Below, piece by piece: positions 3,029 through 20,330 of a DNA stretch of 45,043 nt (positions are counted from its first letter, which is position 1; each line of letters opens with the position of its first letter). A program made the translations under genes and the position numbers. The notes beneath the pieces were generated by a model, which did not search any database, was not told where the DNA came from, and was given only the letters and a program-made list of their open reading frames with translations. Origin of the DNA: a virus; IMG/VR virus record IMGVR_UViG_3300036719_004797, positions 1 through 45,043 of that record; one strand, given 5' to 3'.

Positions 3029-3952
3029 TTACTCCGTAGGGGTGCAAATCTCGTGCAGGCGAGCGTCCACCCGCTCGTGCAGCTCATCCCATTCGTCCTG
3101 CGACAATTCGCCGGCGTGCAGCCGTTGATCCATCCGCTTCGCGAGATCGGTGACCTCGGCGGTGGTCGCGGCGTCGTTGATTGCGGCCAGGCCCTTCTTG
3201 AACAGGGCTGACCGTTGTTTCGTGGACGAGGACGGTGCAGGCTCGACAATCTGCACCGCCTCGCCACCGGCTAGCCACGCGGCTAGCCGTTGTCCGGTTT
3301 CGGCCGTAATGGCCTTGGGATCGCCGGCAAATAAGCCGGTCCGATCCTTGCTCGCCACCGCGAAATGGCCGTCGTGCACCAGGTCGAGGCAGCAGGTGAA
3401 CTCGTATTCGACGCCGTCACGCGTCTCGGCCTTCATGCCGAGCTTGACCACCTTCTTCTTCCCGCCTTCGTCCACCTGGGCGGTTTCGGTTTTGGACCGC
3501 GACGTGGCGATGACATGAGCGCTCGAGCGGAGCATCCGGTCGATGAACGCCCGATGCCGCGGCGTGACCTCGCTGTAGGCGCTCCAGGTGTTGCCGCGGA
3601 ACTTGGCCCGTGCCAGTTCGTCCACCAGCTCCAGGCAGCCGCCCTTGCCGTTCCACTCGTGGCTGATGCTATCGACGATGATCGCATCGGCCCCGGCCTG
3701 CTCGGCGGCGTCAATCGCCTCGATGTACCGCTCGGGCGTGAACGGCGGAGCCAGGTCGATGACCTGGAAGGGCACGAGGGAATCGTACAGATCGCTCGAC
3801 CCCTGCTCGGTGTCGAGGACGATGATGTTCTGGCAGCCGAGGCCCTTGGCGACCAGAAGGCCGCCATAGGTCTTGCCGCTGCCAGACGGGCCCGTCAGCA
3901 AAAGCCGCAGCTTGGTCGCGGACCGTCGTGCCTTGCGAATCGAAATACTCAT
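3029..3952 (-). CDS. Sak4-like RecA-fold ATPase (phage recombinase, AAA_24 type)
   Basis: The 307-aa product has a Walker A motif GPSGSGKT at residues 21-28, a Walker B-like IIVDS at 91-95 and a Q/S/T-rich sensor segment (VIATSRSKTE, about 150). This matches the P-loop phage proteins of the Sak4 group (RecA/Rad51 core), which promote single-strand annealing together with an SSB. The C-terminal 70 residues are helical and charged. Its ATG overlaps the stop of the preceding gene, and an SSB-like gene follows within 200 bases, supporting the call. The first codons (MSISI) contain one copy of the TATTTCGAT motif. Confidence 0.8.
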   Translation of the reverse strand: MSISIRKARRSATKLRLLLTGPSGSGKTYGGLLVAKGLGCQNIIVLDTEQGSSDLYDSLVPFQVIDLAPPFTPERYIEAIDAAEQAGADAIIVDSISHEWNGKGGCLELVDELARAKFRGNTWSAYSEVTPRHRAFIDRMLRSSAHVIATSRSKTETAQVDEGGKKKVVKLGMKAETRDGVEYEFTCCLDLVHDGHFAVASKDRTGLFAGDPKAITAETGQRLAAWLAGGEAVQIVEPAPSSSTKQRSALFKKGLAAINDAATTAEVTDLAKRMDQRLHAGELSQDEWDELHERVDARLHEICTPTE

Positions 3953-4170
3953 GCTTCGTGCTTCCTCTCTCTACGAAGTTCCAGGGCCGCCTCCGCTAGC
4001 GACGTTCGCAGCGACAGCACGGCGGCCGGCTCCAACTCGTACACACCAACTCCCACACGCCGCATCCCGGCGGCGAGTCGCTTTGCAGCGTGATACAACT
4101 CCAAGAGTCTCGCCGTCCTGGCGGCGATCCGCTGCTCCGCGATCCTTTGCTCACTCGTCAACGCGAGCAT
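3949..4170 (-). CDS. Small helical hypothetical protein
   Basis: The ATG at 4170 follows GGAGG (within the 3' end of csrA) at a good distance. The product is 73 aa, with MLALTSEQRIAEQRIAART and a long amphipathic helical pattern ending in ELRRERKHEA. It overlaps csrA by 20 bases and the next gene by four. No family is recognised; a coiled-coil or DNA-associated accessory protein would fit the composition. Confidence 0.6.
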   Translation of the reverse strand: MLALTSEQRIAEQRIAARTARLLELYHAAKRLAAGMRRVGVGVYELEPAAVLSLRTSLAEAALELRRERKHEA

Positions 4171-4345
4171 CCTTGCCTCCATTGAAGTCGAGCCGCTCCA
4201 GCAGCTCGTTGCGATACACCTGCTTTTCGCGGTCGGCCGTAATGCCGATTCGCACCTTGTCGCCCCGTATCTCAATCACGGTGATTTCGATTTCCAGGGC
4301 TGGAAACACAAGCGATTCGCCTTCCCGGCGTGAGAGCACGAGCAT
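4151..4345 (-). CDS. csrA: CsrA-family RNA-binding translational regulator
   Basis: The 64-aa product starts MLVLSRREGESLVF and continues ITVIEIRGDKVRIGI and ADREKQVYRNEL. These are the diagnostic CsrA/RsmA features: M-L-V-L-S/T-R at the N terminus, the G-x-x-I/V-R-I-G-I strand and the R-x-E-I/L/V near residue 45. CsrA dimers bind GGA motifs in mRNA leaders and control translation. The length matches cellular CsrA (about 61-68 aa). It is coupled by TAATG to the gene before it. A phage copy could redirect host translation or control phage mRNAs. Confidence 0.93.
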   Translation of the reverse strand: MLVLSRREGESLVFPALEIEITVIEIRGDKVRIGITADREKQVYRNELLERLDFNGGKDARVDE

Positions 4346-7942: not shown

Positions 7943-8052
7943 CCGCCGGGCTCGAGCGTCGCCGCCGGCCGTCGGATTCTCACGAAACCAAGTGTCCACC
8001 ATGCCCGGCCGGCGCAGGGGTATAGGCGAAAAAGTTTTTTTGGGTTCAAGGC

Positions 8053-8081
8053 TTGACAGGCTATTTACCGATCGGTAGATT
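8053..8081 (+). promoter_or_regulatory. Promoter P1 with palindrome TACCGATCGGTA
   Basis: TTGACA (8053-8058), a 17-base spacer and TAGATT (8076-8081). The spacer contains the perfect 12-bp palindrome TACCGATCGGTA (8066-8077), overlapping the -10. A symmetrical A-tract/T-tract (8029-8041) upstream could be an UP element. It serves the 57-aa gene at 8108. Confidence 0.8.
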
Positions 8082-8107
8082 AGTGGCACCAACGGGAGAA
8101 AGTGAAA

Positions 8108-8281
8108 ATGGAAGACAAGCTGACGCCGAAGTTTGTGGCGGTTTTCGCGGCCTGGAACGGCCGGCCGATGGGACCGGAAGAGCTGGCCGGGCTCGAGCGT
8201 ATGACACAACAAGAGCTCGCCGAAAACTTTTTCTATCTCGCCGAAAAAATTAAGCTTGACCGCATTTTGGCCGATCGGTAA
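8108..8281 (+). CDS. 57-aa hypothetical protein, first gene of the right-hand region
   Basis: The ATG at 8108 follows GGGAGAAAGTGAAA and lies 26 bases after the P1 -10, so it has both a promoter and a Shine-Dalgarno. The protein reads MEDKLTPKFVAVFAAWNGRP and then GLERMTQQELAENFFYL, mixed helical and charged, with no recognised domain. Its last codons and stop (GCC-GAT-CGG-TAA) form part of promoter P2. It could be an early regulator, but that is only inferred from position. Confidence 0.65.
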   Translation: MEDKLTPKFVAVFAAWNGRPMGPEELAGLERMTQQELAENFFYLAEKIKLDRILADR

Positions 8282-8284
8282 TAT
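8256..8284 (+). promoter_or_regulatory. Promoter P2 overlapping the end of the 57-aa gene
   Basis: TTGACC (8256-8261), a 17-base spacer and TAATAT (8279-8284), with CCGATCGG (8271-8278) immediately before the -10. The expected start of transcription, about seven bases after the -10, falls on the A of the ATG at 8291, so the next gene is probably translated from a leaderless mRNA. Confidence 0.75.
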
Positions 8285-8290
8285 ACTGGC

Positions 8291-8878
8291 ATGAACACTA
8301 ATGAACACAAATCACGAGCGGCGGCCGCGGGCCTTGAATGGTCCGCAGTGCTCGCCGCCTACCGTGAGGCCCGCGGGCTCGAGGCCGCCGACGTTGAGCG
8401 TCGCCAGGCCTTCCGCCGCGACGCGTTCAAGGCTTCCAGCGGCGACGCTCATGGCGGACACTGGAAGGCCGCCAATCGTGCCGCGTTCACCGGCGGCGAC
8501 GCTACTTACGTCAAGGGCCTTGACGTGACGGCCGCCGACCGCGGCATGACAGCCGATGAGGTATTCGCGGAGCTGGCCGGCGACGCCCCGACACTCCGCC
8601 CGGCCGACGACGTGATGAGCGAAACGATTGACCGGCTCGCCGCGCTCGCCGCGTCGCCGGCCGACGACACGGCCGACATGGTGCCGCTCGTGGCCGCCGC
8701 GGCCGCCGCCGATATCACGGAGCAATGGCTTCGCCAACTCGTGAAAGCCGGCAAGGTCCGCGGCCGCAAGGCCGGGCGAAACTGGCTCGTTTCCGCCGCC
8801 GACGTGGCGTTTTTCCAGCGGCATCCGACGGCCGGACGCCCGCGTTTTCGCGTTTTTCAACAACCCGCCCCATTTTGA
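8291..8878 (+). CDS. Helix-turn-helix protein, probably leaderless
   Basis: The 195-aa product starts MNTNEHKSRAAAAGLEW. The C-terminal part (residues about 138-185) reads AAAAADITEQWLRQLVKAGK, VRGRKAGRNWLVSAADVAFF, the MerR/excisionase-type winged helix in which a turn-rich hairpin follows the recognition helix. The N-terminal 130 residues are Ala/Asp-rich with no known domain. It is the first larger gene of the right-hand unit and may regulate it. No Shine-Dalgarno is seen, and the ATG coincides with the predicted transcription start of P2. A downstream ATG at 8301 is out of frame. Confidence 0.7.
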   Translation: MNTNEHKSRAAAAGLEWSAVLAAYREARGLEAADVERRQAFRRDAFKASSGDAHGGHWKAANRAAFTGGDATYVKGLDVTAADRGMTADEVFAELAGDAPTLRPADDVMSETIDRLAALAASPADDTADMVPLVAAAAAADITEQWLRQLVKAGKVRGRKAGRNWLVSAADVAFFQRHPTAGRPRFRVFQQPAPF

Positions 8879-8945
8879 CCGTTCGAACATAACGCCCGAA
8901 CCCGGCCGCGGGCATCAACGGCCGGACAACCAGGAGCCCGAACCC

Positions 8946-9350
8946 ATGACCGCCTATCGCATCATTCGAACCCCCGACGCCCGCAGCCGCGGCGCGGTTT
9001 CATTCTTCGACGTGGAGCGCGTCGCGGCCGACGGCCGCCGCCAATGGATCGCCACAACCGATAACCGCGCCGAGGCTCGTGAGCTGGTACGCGGGCTCGA
9101 GGCGGACAACCAGGCCGCCCGCGACGCGTCCACGGCCGCCGAGCTGGCCGCCGCTCGTGACGCCGCCGACCGCCTACAGAATCGCCGCCGAAAGATCGCC
9201 GGCGGGCATCCGCTCGCCTGGAAGGGCTATCGCGCTACAGCCGGCCTTGCCGGCATGATCGCCGAGGCCCGCGATGCCGCCGCCGCCCGGCTTCGCGCCG
9301 CTCGTGCCGCCTACATGGCCGCCGACGCGGCCGCCGATTGCCGCTGGTAG
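8946..9350 (+). CDS. Hypothetical Ala-rich protein
   Basis: The 134-aa product opens MTAYRIIRTPDARSRGAVSF and carries a central, long Ala/Arg-rich helical region (AAELAAARDAADRLQNRR), then a short Trp-containing segment. It follows the conserved leader exactly. It has no recognised domain; a coiled coil is likely from composition. A small GC hairpin follows (9392-9410). Confidence 0.65.
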   Translation: MTAYRIIRTPDARSRGAVSFFDVERVAADGRRQWIATTDNRAEARELVRGLEADNQAARDASTAAELAAARDAADRLQNRRRKIAGGHPLAWKGYRATAGLAGMIAEARDAAAARLRAARAAYMAADAAADCRW

Positions 9351-9391
9351 CTGCGGCCCCCGGCCGCCGGCCGTGGCACAAGCCGCGGCCG

Positions 9392-9410
9392 GTGCCCGGC
9401 GGCCGGGCAC
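9392..9410 (+). terminator. Hairpin after the 134-aa gene
   Basis: GTGCCCGG-CGG-CCGGGCAC is a perfect 8-bp stem with a 3-base loop, 42 bases after the stop. No T-run follows, so it may be a pause, a weak terminator or an mRNA-stability element. Confidence 0.35.
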
Positions 9411-9455
9411 GTTGCCCGACCCCGAACCCGTGAACCCAACCAGGAGCCCGAACCC

Positions 9456-10409
9456 ATGACCGCCCGCACCACAACCCGCACCGCCCGCCCCGACGTGTAC
9501 CAGACCGTCACCGATTCAATCGTCGCCGCCCTCGAGGCTGGCAACGTCGCCCCCTGGCATAAGCCGTGGAAGGCCGGCCACGCCGCCGGGCCCGTGTCGC
9601 GCCCGCTCCGGAACAACGGCCAACCGTACCAAGGCGTAAACGTGCTCGTTCTCTGGATTGCCGCCGAGGCCGCCGGTTACACGGCCCCGCTCTGGCTTAC
9701 CTACAAACAGGCCGCCGAGGCCGGCGGCCACGTCCGGAAGGGGGAGAAGGGCACAACCGTTGTCTACGCGTCCACGTTCACGAAAGAGGAAACCCGCGCC
9801 GACGGCTCGACCGCCGAGCGGAAAATACCGTTTCTCAAAACCTACACGGTATTCAATGCAGAACAGTGTGACGGCTTGCCCGCACACTACGCGGCACAGG
9901 TCCCGCCGCCGGCCGGCGACGTGACGCCGCACGAGGCCGCCGCCGCTTTCGCCGCGGCCACCGGCGCCGACATCCGCGCCGGCGGTGCCCGCGCCTACTA
10001 CTCGCCGGCCGCCGATTACATCCAGGTCCCGCACGCGGCCACGTTTGAAACGGCCGAGGCGCACGCGTGCACGACGCTCCACGAGCTGGCGCACTGGACC
10101 GGCCACGCGTCGCGGCTTGCCCGCGACCTGGCCGGCAAGTTCGAGCGGCACGCGTACGCGGCCGAGGAACTGGTAGCCGAACTGGCCGCGGCTTTCCTGG
10201 CGGCCGACCTTGGCCTCGAGGCGAGCCCGCATCCGGAGCACGTCAACTACCTGGCCGCCTGGCTCGAGGTCCTCAAGAGCGACAAGCGTGCCATTTTCAC
10301 CGCGGCGAGCGCCGCCAGCCGGGCGGCCGCCTACCTGCACTCGCTGCAGCCGGGCGGAGCCGGCGACCAGGAGCCCGCCGAAACCGAGGCCGAACCCGTC
10401 GAGGCCTGA
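9456..10409 (+). CDS. ardC: ArdC-type antirestriction protein with zincin-like domain
   Basis: The 317-aa product has the ArdC N-terminal ssDNA-binding domain (residues about 12-145; GNVAPWHKPW, RNNGQPYQGVNVLVLW, KGEKGTTVVY, TVFNAEQCDG are typical). A metallopeptidase-like domain follows with HELAHWTGH (209-217) and the downstream helix AEELVAELAAAFL (about 235) supplying the third ligand Glu. Family members protect incoming DNA from type I and related restriction and were first known on conjugative plasmids. It is probably expressed early, matching the location behind promoters P1/P2. It follows the conserved leader. Together with the phage methyltransferase it suggests two layers of anti-restriction. 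Confidence 0.88.
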   Translation: MTARTTTRTARPDVYQTVTDSIVAALEAGNVAPWHKPWKAGHAAGPVSRPLRNNGQPYQGVNVLVLWIAAEAAGYTAPLWLTYKQAAEAGGHVRKGEKGTTVVYASTFTKEETRADGSTAERKIPFLKTYTVFNAEQCDGLPAHYAAQVPPPAGDVTPHEAAAAFAAATGADIRAGGARAYYSPAADYIQVPHAATFETAEAHACTTLHELAHWTGHASRLARDLAGKFERHAYAAEELVAELAAAFLAADLGLEASPHPEHVNYLAAWLEVLKSDKRAIFTAASAASRAAAYLHSLQPGGAGDQEPAETEAEPVEA

Positions 10410-10416
10410 CGCCGAC

Positions 10417-10448
10417 GCCGGGCCCGGCCAACGTCGGCCGGGCCCGGC
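10417..10448 (+). terminator. 13-bp-stem hairpin after ardC
   Basis: GCCGGGCCCGGCC (10417-10429) is the exact reverse complement of GGCCGGGCCCGGC (10436-10448), with a 6-base loop. No T-run follows. Each arm is itself nearly palindromic. A similar hairpin lies at 12740-12772. Confidence 0.45.
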
Positions 10449-10484
10449 AACCCACCACCACCACCAGCACAGGAGCCCGAACCC

Positions 10485-10724
10485 ATGACCGCCGCCCAAT
10501 TTTGCCGCCTGGCCTCACGTTACGCCGACCTGCCCGCCAACGTCCGCCGCACCGTGGACGCTCTGGCCCTTGCCGATTGGCCCGAGGCGGACCGCCACGC
10601 CGCCCGCGGCACCGACGCCCGCCGCGCGGCGGACCGTTTCCTCCTCGACCTGGACGCCGTCGGCGCCGCCGTCGGCCCGGCCCGCCCTGCAGCTGCCCGC
10701 ACGGTGCCCATGTTCGCCGATTAA
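10485..10724 (+). CDS. Small hypothetical protein
   Basis: The 79-aa product starts MTAAQFCRLASRYADLPANV and looks helical, with an acidic middle (DWPEADRHAARGTDARRAAD). It has the conserved leader and ends in TAA directly ahead of the A-tract that precedes promoter P3. No family is recognised. Confidence 0.6.
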   Translation: MTAAQFCRLASRYADLPANVRRTVDALALADWPEADRHAARGTDARRAADRFLLDLDAVGAAVGPARPAAARTVPMFAD

Positions 10725-10742
10725 AAAAAGTTTTCTCACCAC

Positions 10743-10771
10743 TTGACAGCGTATTTACCGATCGGTAATAT
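10743..10771 (+). promoter_or_regulatory. Promoter P3 with palindrome TACCGATCGGTA
   Basis: TTGACA (10743-10748), a 17-base spacer and TAATAT (10766-10771), with TACCGATCGGTA at 10756-10767. AAAAAAAGTTTT (10723-10734) lies just upstream, as in P1 and P4. It drives the gene at 10820. Confidence 0.85.
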
Positions 10772-10819
10772 ACACCAACCAACGCGGCCGAGGCCGCACA
10801 ACCCTAGGAGCCCGAACCC

Positions 10820-11398
10820 ATGCACCGCTTCCGCGTACTAGGAATCACCGACGCCGCCGGCCACTGTGAGCTATGCGGCACCTTCTGCCCCGCGCGACGC
10901 GTCGCCGTCGAGCTCGTTGACGTGGACGGCGCCACGACCGGTGACGTTCAATATTGGGGCGTCGTTTGTGCCGCCGAGGCCCGCAGCGGCCGCCGCGATG
11001 CGACCATCGCCCGCCAGCTCCGCCAGGAGGCCGAGCACGCCGGCGAGTATGACGCCGCCGGCCGCCCGCACGCCGGCCGCCGCTCGAGGCCGACCGTCCG
11101 CCGGCAGTCCCGCCGCGAGGCCGCCGCGGCCGCCGCGGCCGCCGCAACCGAGGCCCGTATCGTATGGGCCCGCACCGCCTCGAGCGTGCCGGCCGGACTC
11201 ACGGCCGAGGCCGCCGCAGAGTATCGGTACCGGCAGGCCGGCCGCCGGCCAGAGTGTAGCTACCTCACGGCCAACAGCGCCGGCCACCTGGCCGCGGTCG
11301 ATCGCACCGACCCGGCAGACGTGGCGCGGTTCGTCGCGGCCGGTTTCACTTACGAGGCCTGGCTCGAGTTGCCGCTCTCCGAACCCGCGGCCGCATGA
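10820..11398 (+). CDS. Hypothetical protein with a possible zinc knuckle
   Basis: The 192-aa product begins MHRFRVLGITDAAGHCELCG; CELCGTFCPARRVAVEL and a later GVVCAAEA give four cysteines that could bind zinc. A long Arg/Ala-rich helical stretch (residues about 60-112, including an octa-Ala run) follows, and then a small domain ending FTYEAWLELPL. It is the first gene behind promoter P3 and has the conserved leader. The function is unknown; nucleic-acid binding is possible. Confidence 0.6.
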   Translation: MHRFRVLGITDAAGHCELCGTFCPARRVAVELVDVDGATTGDVQYWGVVCAAEARSGRRDATIARQLRQEAEHAGEYDAAGRPHAGRRSRPTVRRQSRREAAAAAAAAATEARIVWARTASSVPAGLTAEAAAEYRYRQAGRRPECSYLTANSAGHLAAVDRTDPADVARFVAAGFTYEAWLELPLSEPAAA

Positions 11399-11500
11399 CG
11401 GCCGCCCCCCGCGTGCCTGGCCGCCTGGCCGGGCCCGCCGGGGCCGGCCGACTTCCGACCGACCCGAACCCATGACCCATAGAACCAGGAGCCCGAACCC

Positions 11501-12019
11501 ATGAGCACGACAACCACCACCACCGCCCGCCACGCCCACACGCCCGGCCCGTGGCGGCACAACCCGAAAACCGGCCACGTCATCCTAAACGGCTCCGCCA
11601 GCTACGCCGTCCGCGATCGCACGGCCGACGACGGCGACCCGCCACGATTCAATCCCGCCGACGTGCAACTGATGGCGGCAGCGCCCGAGCTGCTCGCCGC
11701 CGTCGAGGCGGCCGTGCAAATGCTCGACCGCTGGTCGCACGTCGCTGGAAACGAGCTGACAGAGACAACCCGCAGGGACCTGGCGGCCGCCTGGCTCGCC
11801 GGCCGCCAGGCCATCCAGGCCGCGACCCGCCGCCGCAGCTTGTGGAGCGTCACGGCAATCGTCGAGGAATGGAATCCGGCCACCGGCGACTTCGACGAAA
11901 TCGACCTGGACCACGAAACGCGAGCATACGACGCCGAAGAAGCCGAGGACGACGCCCGCAACAGATGGAGCGACCACGGCTATAGCCCCGACCGCGTGAA
12001 GGTCCGCCGCATCGACTGA
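11501..12019 (+). CDS. Hypothetical phage protein of the HTPGPW type
   Basis: The 172-aa product contains HTPGPWRHNPKTG near the start and FNPADVQLMAAAPELLAAV in the middle. The combination of T-P-G-P-W with a downstream A-x-x-I/L-M/I-A-A-A-P-E-L-L is widespread in phage early regions, but the function is unknown. The second half (WSVTAIVEEWNPATGDFDEI) looks like a separate small domain. It uses the conserved leader; a short upstream frame from the extra leader copy at 11471 ends in a TGA that overlaps its ATG. Confidence 0.65.
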   Translation: MSTTTTTTARHAHTPGPWRHNPKTGHVILNGSASYAVRDRTADDGDPPRFNPADVQLMAAAPELLAAVEAAVQMLDRWSHVAGNELTETTRRDLAAAWLAGRQAIQAATRRRSLWSVTAIVEEWNPATGDFDEIDLDHETRAYDAEEAEDDARNRWSDHGYSPDRVKVRRID

Positions 12020-12126
12020 CCCGGCCGCCCCTCCCCCGGCCCCGGCATCCGCCGCGGCCGGCCAGGGGGATGCCGGCGACGCTCGCCGACTCCCGAACCC
12101 ATAGCCCCAACCAGGAGCCCGAACCC

Positions 12127-12411
12127 ATGACCACGAACCCGCAGACTTTCCCGCACGGCGCGACGCTCGAGCACACGACGACCGCAGGCTACGAAATCCG
12201 CCGCCGCGGCCGCTTGGTCGGACGCGTGCATATCCGCACGACCGCCCGCAGCCGTTGGTCCGCCGACATTTTCGCCTATGACGGTTTCGCCTGGACGCTC
12301 GACCGCCGCACGCCGGCGGCCACGCTCCGCGAGACTCGCGACGCCGTCCGAGACTACGTCGCCGCCTACGACCGCTTCGCCTACGTCGCTTCCGGCGACT
12401 GCCACCGATAA
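12127..12411 (+). CDS. Small hypothetical protein
   Basis: The ATG at 12127 directly follows an exact leader. The 94-aa product (GATLEHTTTAGYEIRRRG ... ADIFAYDGFAWTL ... DYVAAYDRFAYVA) is rich in aromatics and beta-prone. No family is recognised. Confidence 0.6.
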   Translation: MTTNPQTFPHGATLEHTTTAGYEIRRRGRLVGRVHIRTTARSRWSADIFAYDGFAWTLDRRTPAATLRETRDAVRDYVAAYDRFAYVASGDCHR

Positions 12412-12464
12412 CCCAGCCCGAACCCATAGCCCGAACCCAACCCCCAACCACGGAGCCCGAACCC

Positions 12465-12731
12465 ATGCCCGCCTATGCCATCGTGAGCAACTACGCCGGA
12501 AAGACTATGGACCACGTCGAATATCCCCGCCGGTGCCGCCGCATGAGCGAGGCTGAACTACTGTTCACGATTGCCGACTGCCGCGAAAGCCTGGCCGCCT
12601 GGCCCGACTGCCCGCAGGCCGATTACTACCAGGACGAAATCCTTTACGCGGCGGCCGAGCTGGCCCGCCGTGAGCGAGGCGGGAAGCGCCGCCGGCCGAT
12701 CGCCGAGCACGCCGCCGGCCTCGAGGAATGA
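12465..12731 (+). CDS. Small hypothetical protein
   Basis: The 88-aa product has EAELLFTIADCRESLAAWPD and YYQDEILYAAAELARRERGG, likely two amphipathic helices. The leader has one mismatch (CGGAG). A segment of this kind (short acidic helix, Y-x-D-E-I/x-x-E-L) is seen in several unannotated phage early proteins, but I cannot assign a role. Confidence 0.6.
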   Translation: MPAYAIVSNYAGKTMDHVEYPRRCRRMSEAELLFTIADCRESLAAWPDCPQADYYQDEILYAAAELARRERGGKRRRPIAEHAAGLEE

Positions 12732-12739
12732 CCGCCGAA

Positions 12740-12772
12740 CCGGGCCCGGCCGGACAACCTGGCCGGGCCCGG
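12740..12772 (+). terminator. 12-bp-stem hairpin
   Basis: CCGGGCCCGGCC (12740-12751) pairs with GGCCGGGCCCGG (12761-12772) around a 9-base loop, right after the 88-aa gene. No T-run follows. It is near-identical in arms to the hairpin after ardC. Confidence 0.45.
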
Positions 12773-12841
12773 CCAACCCACGGACAACCCAGCCCGAACC
12801 AATGACCAACCATCGCACAACCCAGCCCGAACCCCGCCGGC

Positions 12842-12870
12842 TTGACCGCCGTGGCCGATCGGCAATAATT
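12842..12870 (+). promoter_or_regulatory. Promoter P5-type, upstream of a leaderless HTH gene
   Basis: TTGACC (12842-12847), then GCCGATCGGC (palindromic) and an AT-rich -10 (AATAAT/ATAATT at about 12864-12870). The ATG of the next gene, at 12876, lies at the expected transcription start, as for P2. Confidence 0.6.
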
Positions 12871-12875
12871 CACCC

Positions 12876-13094
12876 ATGCCAAAGATCGACCCATCGCACT
12901 ACGTTTCAATTCAGACCGGCGCCCGCCTGGCCGGCATCAGCCGGTTGCACTTGCGGGAGTGCATCAAGGCCGGCCGCGTCCAAGGTATCGAGATCGACGG
13001 CTACTACTTCGCGCTCCGCAGCTCGTGCGAGAAGTTTGAACGCGACCCCGTCGGCCGAGGCCGGCCGCGCACCAAGCCGGCCGACGGTCGATAG
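12876..13094 (+). CDS. Small helix-turn-helix (excisionase/MerR-like) protein, probably leaderless
   Basis: The 72-aa product contains VSIQTGARLAGISRLHLREC and IKAGRVQGIEIDGYYFALRS, the compact winged helix of excisionases and MerR-type regulators. It is related in layout to the C terminus of the 8291 protein, and the two are the only genes in this block that lack the AGGAGCCCGAACCC leader and sit directly on a promoter. It could be the excisionase, working with int, or a regulator of the right-hand promoters. Its C terminus is basic (GRGRPRTKPADGR). Confidence 0.7.
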   Translation: MPKIDPSHYVSIQTGARLAGISRLHLRECIKAGRVQGIEIDGYYFALRSSCEKFERDPVGRGRPRTKPADGR

Positions 13095-13139
13095 CCAAGG
13101 CCGCCGGGCAGCCCACAAAAAACTTTTTTTGCTCACCAC

Positions 13140-13168
13140 TTGGAACCTATTTAGCCGAACGGTAATAT
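13140..13168 (+). promoter_or_regulatory. Promoter P4 with an imperfect palindrome
   Basis: TTGGAA (13140-13145), a 17-base spacer and TAATAT (13163-13168), with TAGCCGAACGGTA in the operator position. AAAAAACTTTTTTT (13117-13130) and GCTCACCACTTG upstream closely match P3 (CTCACCACTTG), so P3 and P4 are copies of one module with a decayed operator in P4. Confidence 0.75.
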
Positions 13169-13214
13169 ACGTCAGACAGTCAGCCCGAACCCCTAACCCA
13201 AGGAACCCGAACCC

Positions 13215-13478
13215 ATGACCACGTCCCGCACGCAATCCGGCCTTCTGCCCATCGGTACGAAGGTATGCGGCAACGACGGTTTCACGCTCCGCGTCGGCCA
13301 GGTCGCCGACCACACTACCGACAAGTGGGGCACCTGGCACGTCGTCGCCGTGGCCGGGAAGTTTGAGAAGGTCGGCCACATCGGCGACGCCGGCCAGCTC
13401 GGTATCGGCTGGAAGGTATGGACCGCACGCGACGGCCGACACGGCGACTCGAGCGGCCCCGCGTATACCGGCGACTGA
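13215..13478 (+). CDS. Small hypothetical protein
   Basis: The 87-aa product (GLLPIGTKVCGNDGFTLRVG ... WGTWHVVAVAGKFEKVG) is strand-rich, possibly an SH3- or Tudor-like small beta domain judging by the G-T-K-V opening. The leader has one mismatch (AGGAACCCGAACCC). It is the first gene behind P4. No family is recognised. Confidence 0.6.
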   Translation: MTTSRTQSGLLPIGTKVCGNDGFTLRVGQVADHTTDKWGTWHVVAVAGKFEKVGHIGDAGQLGIGWKVWTARDGRHGDSSGPAYTGD

Positions 13479-13506
13479 CCACCAACAACCCCAGGAACCC
13501 GAACCC

Positions 13507-13740
13507 ATGACCACCGCAGCCCCAACCCACCGCCACCCCGACCCGCTCGTGCTCGAGACTGTGGCCGCCATCCTGGCCGGCCACGAGCTGCCCGACGAGC
13601 TGCACAACATCGACAACTACGATTCGATCGGCTGCCCGATCGCCAACCGATACGCGGCACGCATCCGCCGGCAGGTTTGCCGGCTCGTGGCCGCATCCGG
13701 CCGGCCGATGCCGCGCACCGGAACCTTCCTCGACGAGTAG
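13507..13740 (+). CDS. Small hypothetical protein
   Basis: The 77-aa product from the ATG at 13507 contains HPDPLVLETVAAILAG and YAARIRRQVCRLVAASG, mostly helical. It is preceded by AGGAACCCGAACCC with one mismatch. The function is unknown; it lies in the same transcript as the primase-polymerase gene. Confidence 0.55.
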   Translation: MTTAAPTHRHPDPLVLETVAAILAGHELPDELHNIDNYDSIGCPIANRYAARIRRQVCRLVAASGRPMPRTGTFLDE

Positions 13741-13785
13741 ACAACCCGGCCGGACAACCCGGCCCCAACCCAGGAGCCCGAACCC

Positions 13786-14283
13786 GTGGACAACCTGACC
13801 GAACTGGAAACGATGGCCGCCAACGGTGCCCGATTCGTCCGCCTCGCCCGCGGCGAGAAACGGCCGCTCGGCGCCGCCTGGCAAACCAAGAGCACCGACG
13901 ACTTGACATACGTCAAGGCCTGGCTGGATTCCGGTAGTAACGTCGGCTTGCTGCTCGGCCAGGCTTCCGGCCTGGTGGACGTGGAATACGACGAGCCCGC
14001 CGGCCTCGAGCAACTGGCCGCCTACGGGATAACCGACCTGCAGACCCCAACCTGGCGATCGGCCAGGGGCGAGCACCGGCTTTTCCGTTGGGCACCGTGG
14101 ATGCCGCCGGCGGCGGCCATCAAGATCGACGGTATCGAAATACGGATCGGCGGCCGCGCCGCTCAATCCGTGCTCCCGCCGTCACGGCATCCGGCCGGCG
14201 GCCGGTATGAATGGATCGTCCCGCCGTCGGCTTGCCCGGTGGCGGCCTTCCCTGCTCAACTCCTGGCGGGAGCCTACGCATGA
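13786..14283 (+). CDS. Primase-polymerase domain protein (prim-pol/AEP N-terminal type)
   Basis: The 165-aa product starts at GTG, directly after an exact leader. NVGLLLGQASGLVDVEYDEP (about residue 45) is the place of the metal-binding D-x-D motif of archaeo-eukaryotic primases, here DVEYDE; GEHRLFRW and AAQSVLPPSRHPAGGRYEW match the later core motifs (S-x-H with P-P-S before it). Usual phage versions are fused to a helicase; this one is the bare domain. It could prime replication from an origin, or act in repair. The TATTTCGAT motif is found in its sequence (14134-14142, minus orientation). Its stop overlaps the next start by ATGA. Confidence 0.75.
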   Translation: MDNLTELETMAANGARFVRLARGEKRPLGAAWQTKSTDDLTYVKAWLDSGSNVGLLLGQASGLVDVEYDEPAGLEQLAAYGITDLQTPTWRSARGEHRLFRWAPWMPPAAAIKIDGIEIRIGGRAAQSVLPPSRHPAGGRYEWIVPPSACPVAAFPAQLLAGAYA

Positions 14284-18369: not shown

Positions 18370-19131
18370 TTATGCCTCCTGGCAGGCCGGGATCGTGGAT
18401 GCGTAGCCCGCCAAGTCGATGGCCGTATCGGGCGTGCCACGCGGGCCCATGCTGCGGGCGATCTTGTCGAGCATCATGACCACCGGCCAATCAGTAACCT
18501 CAAACGGCGGCTCCCCGGCCTCGAGCCGTCTGGCGAACTTGGCGGCGAACGCGGCATTGAGTAGCCCGACCGTGATTTTGAAATGCTCGGCCGGCGGGCC
18601 GTAGGTGCCGCTCCGCTCCCGCACTACGTCGATCGCCTGCCGCAGCAGGGCCTCGGCCGCCGTTGCCGGCACAGGCCGCGGGCCGTCGAGGCCGAACACC
18701 CTCCCAGACACAACCGGCTCGGGCTTCGTCAGCCCGTCGTGCAGTTCCGCATGGCGGGCCTTCACGGCCGCCCACGCCGCCTCGATCGTGTCGGGGTCCA
18801 TCGCCGACACGCACTCGCCGTCGAGGGCCTCGTCGTCATCGGCGATTACCCGCTCGGGGTCCACGAGCGGGCCGCGCGTGTCGATCGTCTGGCACAGAGG
18901 CAGCCCCTCGCAGCAGGCCGCCTCGGCGGCCGCGACTCGCGTATCCCTGGCCGCACGCAGGGCCGCATTTTGCTGCTCCAACTGCTCCATCGTATTCATC
19001 AAACGCTGCCTCTCTCGTAAAAGTCTGAACGCGTCGGCGGCCAGCGACCCGCTGGTGCCTTGGTCCCATGTCCCTTGGAATTGCCGGCACCGCCGCTCGA
19101 CGGCCGCCAGGTATTCGGCGTCGAGAATCAA
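18370..19131 (-). CDS. DUF6378-containing protein
   Basis: The frame opens at a TTG (19131-19129), with GGAGG five bases upstream and the stop of the metallophosphoesterase overlapping it as TTGA, giving 253 aa. A coiled-coil region (LRERQRLMNTMEQLEQQNAA, about residues 40-60) comes before a Cys pair segment. The C-terminal domain (about residues 175-250: RSGTYGPPAEHFKITVGLLN, WPVVMMLDKIARSMG, DTAIDLAGYA) matches the DUF6378 pattern, widespread in phages and of unknown biochemistry. The use of TTG is unusual but well supported by context. Confidence 0.7.
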   Translation of the reverse strand: MILDAEYLAAVERRCRQFQGTWDQGTSGSLAADAFRLLRERQRLMNTMEQLEQQNAALRAARDTRVAAAEAACCEGLPLCQTIDTRGPLVDPERVIADDDEALDGECVSAMDPDTIEAAWAAVKARHAELHDGLTKPEPVVSGRVFGLDGPRPVPATAAEALLRQAIDVVRERSGTYGPPAEHFKITVGLLNAAFAAKFARRLEAGEPPFEVTDWPVVMMLDKIARSMGPRGTPDTAIDLAGYASTIPACQEA

Positions 19132-20330
19132 CGCACCTCCATCGACGGGCCGGCGACGTGCATGGCCGCCAGGCCGCCACTGTGGTCGTAGACGAACAGC
19201 TCCATCGCCTGCCTGGCGCCAATCCAGCCATTTACGGCGTGATAGTCGTCGGCTGGCCCAAGCGACGGCGCGACTCTCACGAGCACCCCGTCGTAGGTTT
19301 CGACCGGCCGCGACCACTCGGCCGCCTGGTGGTGCAGGTGGCCCGTATGGATTTCACGGTAGGGGCACTTCGCCCACTCCCGCGGGGCCTCGATCGCCAT
19401 GAGCTGCGGCAGCTTCTTTTTGGCCCGGTTCCCATGGCAGAACCCCAGGAGGTTGCGACCATGATGCAAATATTTCCGCGGCGTGTAGGCCTGCTCGACC
19501 TTCACGCGGCGGTCGTTCCGGAATCGCTCTACCAGGATGCGTTGAAAGGCGAACGTCAGGGTTTCGTCGTGATTGCCGGCGACCACGAGCGTGTCGGCCG
19601 GGGCGACAGTCGCGGCCGCGTCCACCATCGCCAGTAGGGCGTCGGTACCATCGCCGAGCATCTTTGGTAGCCGGCCGTCCCGCTCGAGCGGCGTGCCGCT
19701 GGTCGTCGTGCCCGCGGGCGTGTCGTAGTGGTACACGTCGCCGAGCGTCGCCACCGTCATTCGGCCGGGCCGGTATCGCCTAGCAACGTCGATCAGCTCC
19801 GACGAGGCCTCACGCACGAGCCGGCCGGCGATCTCCAGGTCGTAGTCGTCGCCCGCGGTTTTCCGCCACGCGTATTTCCCGAAATGCGGATCGGCCACCA
19901 CGAGCACGGCCCAACTATTATTCCGTTCCGGATACTTGGGGCGCGGCTTGATCGGCTTTCGGATTTTCCCGGCGGCCGCCTCGATCATGGCCTCGACGCA
20001 CTCGCGGACCGTCGGGCCCGGACGAGGGCGGAGCCGGACGAACACCCGAAACAGCTCGGTGACGGTCGGCTGGCCGGTGGCCCGGTCCACGGTGGCACAC
20101 TCCCACTTGGTCGCTTCGCTCGCGGCCACTTCGTACAGCGACAGGTCAGCCTCGATATGCCGCAGCAGGTCGTCCACGGTGCGGATCGTCCGGCTCGTCG
20201 AACGTGCCTCGAGCACGTCGCCGTCCTGCTTCCGTGTCACTTGCTCGGCGTCGGCTGACGGCGTCGCCTTGGCCTGGCTGGCCGCAGCAACACCTGCCGC
20301 CACCTCGGCTATGAGGCTCGCTTTAGCCAA
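19128..20330 (-). CDS. Calcineurin-like metallophosphoesterase
   Basis: The 400-aa product shows the family motifs in order: DPHFGK (about residue 147), GDVYHYD (about 195), GNHDE (about 252), a His-bearing segment GFCHGNR (about 297) and GHLH (about 329). These residues bind the two metal ions. The first 130 residues form a distinct, helical N-terminal part. Phage enzymes of this type have been linked to DNA ends, nucleotide or RNA processing; the substrate here is not determinable. It overlaps the small gene before it by 22 bases. Confidence 0.85.
   Translation of the reverse strand: MAKASLIAEVAAGVAAASQAKATPSADAEQVTRKQDGDVLEARSTSRTIRTVDDLLRHIEADLSLYEVAASEATKWECATVDRATGQPTVTELFRVFVRLRPRPGPTVRECVEAMIEAAAGKIRKPIKPRPKYPERNNSWAVLVVADPHFGKYAWRKTAGDDYDLEIAGRLVREASSELIDVARRYRPGRMTVATLGDVYHYDTPAGTTTSGTPLERDGRLPKMLGDGTDALLAMVDAAATVAPADTLVVAGNHDETLTFAFQRILVERFRNDRRVKVEQAYTPRKYLHHGRNLLGFCHGNRAKKKLPQLMAIEAPREWAKCPYREIHTGHLHHQAAEWSRPVETYDGVLVRVAPSLGPADDYHAVNGWIGARQAMELFVYDHSGGLAAMHVAGPSMEVR

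Follow-up and report, generated by a model that had tools for sequence, protein, structure and literature searches.

Start-Associated Sequences (SAS) were described from Cluster K mycobacteriophages (PMC3203893), and a similar motif was reported from Cluster EF Microbacterium phages (PMC7302621). Their function has been unsettled since 2011, and in the literature that we found they are described only from actinobacterial phages. Here we analyzed a viral DNA stretch of 45,043 nucleotides (IMG/VR record IMGVR_UViG_3300036719_004797, positions 1 to 45,043), which is referred to as the window. Ten of its genes are preceded by a near-identical 14-bp leader, AGGAGCCCGAACCC, composed of the Shine-Dalgarno bases AGGAG and the nine-base box CCCGAACCC. 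Judged from sequence comparison, AGGAGCCCGAACCC is probably the sequence-specific translation-initiation leader of one phage clade and doubles as a recombination joint, a reading to which we assign a probability of roughly 0.6.

Of the known systems, SAS are the closest to the leader: both are short, asymmetric, AGGAG-containing repeats that mark the ribosome sites of numerous unrelated non-structural genes in one orientation. Both are lineage-specific, and SAS are conserved beyond possible 16S pairing. SAS occur in about 10–19 copies with one orientation; the window has 10 copies (at most one mismatch), all on the plus strand. As with SAS, these are confined to the non-structural arm (8.9–13.8 kb), stand before mostly ATG starts (9 of 10), and spread over many families, which number at least 21 in five phages. 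The core AGGAGCCC is common to both and ends 6 nt before the start codon here. The ten sites of mycobacteriophage TM4 (NC_003387) are arranged as an A/C-rich stretch, GGGATAGGAGCCC, usually 3–7 nt, and the start codon, often as ATGACC. The SAS box is upstream of AGGAG (GGGAT) and the last 3–7 nt are variable, whereas the conserved box of the window leader is downstream of AGGAG and reaches the start codon. The Cluster K consensus GGGATAGGAGCCC has no copy in the window with at most one mismatch and one copy with two. ESAS, the imperfect 17-bp inverted repeat upstream of about half of the Cluster K sites, has no counterpart in the window, where the spacers carry GC hairpins without a common sequence. 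As both the consensus and ESAS are missing, the leader is not a Cluster K SAS but rather a new variant of the SAS-type leader. It also differs from SAS in that open reading frame (ORF)-exact exchange at the leader is demonstrated here. The clade provides an independent case, in which the different position of the box tells the conserved part and the Shine-Dalgarno site apart.

For gene shuffling, one of the nearest parallels is the promoter early stem-loops (PeSL) of T4-type phages, described in PMC4503421 as intergenic units with a stem-loop, each with an early promoter, that are thought to mediate small-gene shuffling. PeSL and the window spacers are alike as intergenic regulatory units with a stem-loop, which is strong in most spacers here. 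They differ in that promoters are found at a minority of leaders, the marker proteins are not T4-like, and the constant part here is a translation leader. Short conserved boundary sequences have been described in mosaic phages (PMC3029335), and repeats flank Corndog gene 14 and occur in Cluster O (PMC4351075). Similar to these, a gene can lie between two short direct repeats and be missing in a relative with one copy, and in our small sample the exchange junctions coincide with the short repeat. Different from these, the joint here additionally serves almost all module genes as their translation leader. The Cluster O 17-bp repeat is separate, palindromic, and not tied to gene starts, unlike the window leader.

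Ten unrelated genes share a start-abutting leader

The ten AGGAGCCCGAACCC copies are located between 8932 and 13785. A scan of the window found seven exact copies and three with one mismatch, and all ten are on the plus strand and abut a start codon, which is ATG in nine genes and GTG in one. The structural arm and the minus strand of the window contain no copy. First-order Markov surrogates of the whole window gave 0.03 expected sites (at most one mismatch) and 0.01 expected start-abutting sites, against 10 observed in either case. The leaders and their genes are as follows.

8932..8945, plus strand: leader 1, exact; gene 8946-9350, 134-residue protein of no known function
9442..9455, plus strand: leader 2, exact; gene 9456-10409, ArdC-like antirestriction protein
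10471..10484, plus strand: leader 3, exact; gene 10485-10724, 79-residue protein, conserved in leaderless relatives
10806..10819, plus strand: leader 4, exact; gene 10820-11398
11487..11500, plus strand: leader 5, exact; gene 11501-12019, replaced by unrelated ORFs in relatives L093 and L011
12113..12126, plus strand: leader 6, exact; gene 12127-12411, replaced by an unrelated ORF in L011
12451..12464, plus strand: leader 7, one mismatch (CGGAG); gene 12465-12731
13201..13214, plus strand: leader 8, one mismatch (AGGAA); gene 13215-13478
13493..13506, plus strand: leader 9, one mismatch (AGGAA); gene 13507-13740, absent from L093
13772..13785, plus strand: leader 10, exact; gene 13786-14283, Prim-Pol domain, GTG start

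The ten proteins belong to ten different families, so the genes are correctly called unrelated. Two are recognized, as an ArdC-like antirestriction protein (9456-10409) and a Prim-Pol domain protein (13786-14283); the other leader genes have no significant Pfam match. The leader-bearing module runs rightward between the leftward structural arm and the integrase region. The window encodes terminase, head-protease/capsid, tape-measure, tail-fibre, integrase, and DNA-methyltransferase genes; its terminase, capsid, tail, and integrase genes identify a tailed phage of temperate type. No Rfam match and no tRNA were found in the window.

In a gene set picked without using the 9-mer, 10 of the 11 Shine-Dalgarno-bearing module genes have exactly CCCGAACCC before the start. 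The window has 18 exact CCCGAACCC copies between 8895 and 13785, all on the plus strand, of which ten are in leaders and eight are upstream in spacers without a Shine-Dalgarno site. The minus strand of the phage has no exact copy, which speaks against an antisense RNA encoded within the phage. Across the clade contigs including the window, 41 copies lie outside standard leaders, some of them in coding sequence or in shifted leaders; these look like duplicated or decayed leaders. The copy upstream of a helix-turn-helix (HTH) gene promoter is kept in five of five clade phages. In places the repeat exceeds 14 bp, as spacers of ~90–110 bp recur at different gene junctions.

The leader belongs to a phage lineage

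When 2.9 million viral contigs were scanned for exact matches to the leader followed by ATG, 14 were returned, four of which have 3–7 copies each. The four related IMG/VR phages L093, L011, L094, and L074 each have 7–10 start-linked copies when up to two mismatches are allowed. L092/L012, 100% identical to L093 over the whole length, was not counted as a separate witness. In a concatenated tree of the 79-residue and Prim-Pol proteins, these four phages and the window form one clade with a bootstrap value of 100, and the multi-copy leader is absent from the 14 other phages of the tree. Within the clade, the leader precedes at least 21 protein families. The leader shared by ten unrelated genes, as described in the original prediction, is borne out.

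An exact scan of 84,980 bacterial and archaeal species genomes gave only single, chance-like leader matches, and a host-wide leader was rejected on this result. Among 392 Planctomycetota genomes, the phylum to which this search was confined, no close match of the 79-residue protein (one weak) and only distant Prim-Pol matches were found. No close cultured phage relative was found. Between 8.1 and 20.5 kb, no clade-specific trans-acting gene was found; the genes common to the four other clade contigs are also present in leaderless phages.

We inspected the same genes outside the clade. Among 66 homologue starts, 65 lack CCCGAACCC and one has the exact 9-mer. The leaderless homologues share the layout, in which an A/C-rich linker and AGGAG are followed by a spacer of comparable length, again mostly A/C-rich, and by ATG, but the spacer letters differ; one relative, for instance, has ACCGAGACC in place of CCCGAACCC. 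In some leaderless phages another leader, AGGAGACCGAGACC, recurs, though more weakly. As the homologues outside the clade stand behind other spacers, the leader belongs to the phage lineage and not to the gene. Homologous leaders that lack CCCGAACCC at unchanged translation had been named as evidence against a function of the box, and the 65 starts supply the sequence half of that observation.

The box next to the start codon is constrained

In orthologous pairs of the clade, CCCGAACCC is 2.0% divergent, compared with ~14% for the five Shine-Dalgarno bases, 13.8% for codon positions 1 and 2, and 32.6% for position 3; these figures serve as guides, the pairs being non-independent and the choice of genes having allowed up to three mismatches to the motif. 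In sets picked without the 9-mer, mean pairwise 9-mer identity within a phage is 0.67–0.90 in the clade and 0.30–0.60 in relatives. Across families, information content is 1.1–2.6 bits per base in the leader and drops upstream, and the high-conservation block extends from the Shine-Dalgarno site to the start codon. The box keeps its place relative to the start codon, also at sites with a different Shine-Dalgarno distance. Before L074 gene 2555, AGGAG is further upstream while CCCGAACCC is unmoved, and the primase leaders of L094 and L074 keep GAACCC at a shorter Shine-Dalgarno distance.

Could the leader be a plain efficient ribosome site, in which AGGAG and an unstructured A/C-rich spacer of good length suffice and the letters became fixed in the clade by accident and spread as spacers recombined? 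In every relative, AGGAG lies in A/C-rich surroundings at comparable spacing, consistent with this explanation. The predicted unpaired probability of leader and start also agrees with it, being 0.59 for the native sequence and 0.58 when spacers of leaderless relatives are substituted; random genomic 9-mers give 0.44. The equal accessibility of native and relatives' spacers accounts for the A/C-richness, not for the exact letters. Moreover, the 9-mer outconserves the Shine-Dalgarno bases in orthologues (2% versus ~14%), and the letters vary freely in relatives with the same genes. When spacers from different junctions are aligned, conservation is concentrated on the leader and the remainder has diverged, which also counts against a plain ribosome site. 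We consider this explanation rather unlikely.

The preferred reading of AGGAGCCCGAACCC as a sequence-specific initiation leader ascribes a role to the letters. With the usual 16S assumed, CCCGAACCC presumably adds nothing to the usual anti-Shine-Dalgarno pairing; the host's own 16S may differ. A shared translational control site, one of two readings offered originally, is possible because CCCGAACCC outconserves the Shine-Dalgarno site, is anchored to the start codon, and is insufficiently explained by accessibility. Tentatively, CCCGAACCC may be read in the mRNA by an undescribed factor, which could be a protein of phage or host, a small RNA, or some property of this host's ribosome, and the leader would then mark a translational regulon. 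If this doubtful extension is true, every phage lineage would carry a 'password' leader of its own, adopted by incoming genes through recombination at the start codon.

Whole reading frames are exchanged at the leader

The spacers preceding the leaders are modular. From 5' to 3', they are composed of the stop codon, usually a strong GC hairpin, an A/C-rich linker poor in G and T, the leader, and the start codon. The hairpin z score is below −2 in 18 of 27 clade spacers; coding control windows of similar length have a mean z of −0.18 and none below −3. The hairpins are strong individually and their sequences differ from spacer to spacer, no shared RNA fold being found among the spacers. The linker before the leader is predicted to be mostly unpaired. 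Five spacers of the window are listed below.

9351..9441, plus strand: spacer, strong hairpin of −55.7 kcal/mol (z −3.5), CCCGAACCC copy without a Shine-Dalgarno site, A/C-rich linker
10410..10470, plus strand: spacer, strong hairpin (z −5.1), A/C-rich linker
11399..11486, plus strand: spacer, strong hairpin (z −4.6)
12020..12112, plus strand: spacer, hairpin (z −1.8)
12732..12845, plus strand: spacer, strong hairpin (z −4.3), two leader remnants without a Shine-Dalgarno site, upstream of the promoter of an HTH gene

Comparison of the clade phages reveals ORF swaps at two sites. Window gene 11501, L093 5021, and L011 1480 are mutually unrelated, and the stretches upstream of them are 99% (L093) and 90% (L011) identical to the window; on the L011 side, identity is back at the stop codon (96%). 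Gene 12127 and L011 1992 are likewise unrelated ORFs, with 97% identity on both flanks. In this L011 ORF, the match to window gene 11501 is limited to the C-terminal part, so here a leader is joined to a gene fragment. Genes are also gained or lost. L093 has one additional gene between two leaders where the window has leader 1, and window gene 13507 sits between two leaders where L093 has a single one; the alignments at these sites overlap by ~20 bp that include the leader. In the out-of-clade pair L082 and L083, the former has one gene more than the latter, and identity resumes exactly at the primase ATG. The sole exact out-of-clade leader among the 66 homologue starts is located before this L082 ATG, at the gene-insertion junction. 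In sum, junctions fall at the leader or start codon in three gene gains or losses and at two ORF-swap sites, which is a small sample. A single L082 gene (11149-11598) has halves that match the separate window genes 13215 and 13507, hence neighbouring cassette genes can fuse.

Spacers themselves are found at more than one junction. The block 13184-13509, which extends across the following leader as far as the start codon, shares 92% identity with L093 between flanks at 76–77%, and spacer 9351-9455 is 88–92% identical to an L093 spacer preceding a different gene. Such movement of whole spacers between junctions, the exchange of genes at the leader, and the exact CCCGAACCC copies in spacers without a Shine-Dalgarno site would also suit a DNA-level repeat linked to recombination or replication, ending at start codons by chance and with letters not needed for translation. 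However, register and orientation to the start codon are fixed in 10 of 10 window genes, the conserved block is bounded by the Shine-Dalgarno site and the start codon, and leaderless relatives have the same A/C-rich layout without the repeat. A purely DNA-level repeat is therefore improbable in our estimation.

Proposed role of the leader

In the preferred reading, one clade of temperate-type phages, all uncultured, would use AGGAGCCCGAACCC as its lineage-specific standard or 'house' leader. AGGAG would serve as its Shine-Dalgarno site and CCCGAACCC as a weakly structured spacer, whose letters would be under an extra sequence-specific constraint from the host ribosome or another factor. The leader forms the 3' end of a modular spacer. 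The resemblance between spacers of several gene junctions, and between those of different phages, could allow complete start-to-stop ORFs to be exchanged, added, or removed by homologous recombination or strand annealing; any incoming ORF would then stand behind the house leader. The phage's own machinery may take part; the predicted RecA/Sak4-like ATPase (3029-3952) and the exonuclease (19128-20330) could promote exchange at short homologies. As for the mobile micro-repeat proposed earlier to carry a ready ribosome site and let genes be added as cassettes, the cassette part agrees with the gain, loss, and swap seen at leader and start, but nothing indicates that the micro-repeat is self-mobile, and what serves as the exchanged joint is the entire intergenic spacer up to and including the leader.

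Several points weigh against this reading. The accessibility of the leader is the same with the spacers of leaderless relatives, so that the exact letters gain no role from it. The CCCGAACCC copies without a Shine-Dalgarno site do not sit well with a role in translation alone. Both the choice of genes by motif similarity and the shared ancestry of the pairs somewhat inflate the conservation figures. The independent exchange events are few, about 5–6, from five partial genomes and the L082/L083 pair. As a joint for swapping single ORFs, the leader links a translation signal to phage mosaicism, and it suggests a route by which small accessory genes are exchanged while keeping their expression.

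The phage CsrA as a candidate reader

The window has a csrA gene, whose product had been suggested to recognize the leader.

4151..4345, minus strand: csrA homologue, 64 residues

The csrA gene, at 4193-4345 on the minus strand, is real (E value 3e-19), and a GGA overlapping the Shine-Dalgarno site is present in 10 of 10 leaders. The CsrA consensus has an ANGGA core, which as a rule sits within a hairpin loop. In most leaders (CCAGGAG), the base two positions before GG is C instead of A, and the core is thus missed; no hairpin loop presenting GGA was found at the leaders, and the conserved CCCGAACCC has no GGA. As csrA is also present in the leaderless relatives L080, L082, L089 (twice), and L090, recognition of the leader by CsrA is not supported, and joint translational control of the ten genes by CsrA binding is very improbable. 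CsrA may act on some of these mRNAs without explaining the leader. csrA was not seen on the other clade contigs, which start near the module and leave that arm uncovered. The L089 contig, which carries two csrA genes, is 77 kb in length.

Promoter-like sites of the module

Five promoter-like sites are present in the window (8050-8085, 8258-8290, 10750-10775, 12845-12875, and 13140-13170). Each has TTGAC or TTGG followed by an A/T-rich −10 box, with a palindrome near TACCGATCGGTA between or beside the −35 and −10 boxes. The TACCGATCGGTA-like palindrome is probably the operator of a phage repressor. Similar promoter-palindrome sites are found in L093, L011, L094, and L074, and these motifs precede only a minority of leaders. 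The HTH-type genes at 8291 and 12876 start ~7–9 bases past the −10 box of such promoters, and both may thus be transcribed as leaderless mRNAs. AT-rich blocks such as AAAAAACTTTTTTT are located at 8028-8045, 10725-10735, and 13115-13130, immediately upstream of three of the promoters, in a phage of 66% GC; they are possible UP elements or terminators. In L094 (3670-3735), tandem 22-bp repeats CCCGAACCCAT(G/A)GCCAACCCAC lie beside an HTH-gene promoter, which suggests slippage of leader fragments.

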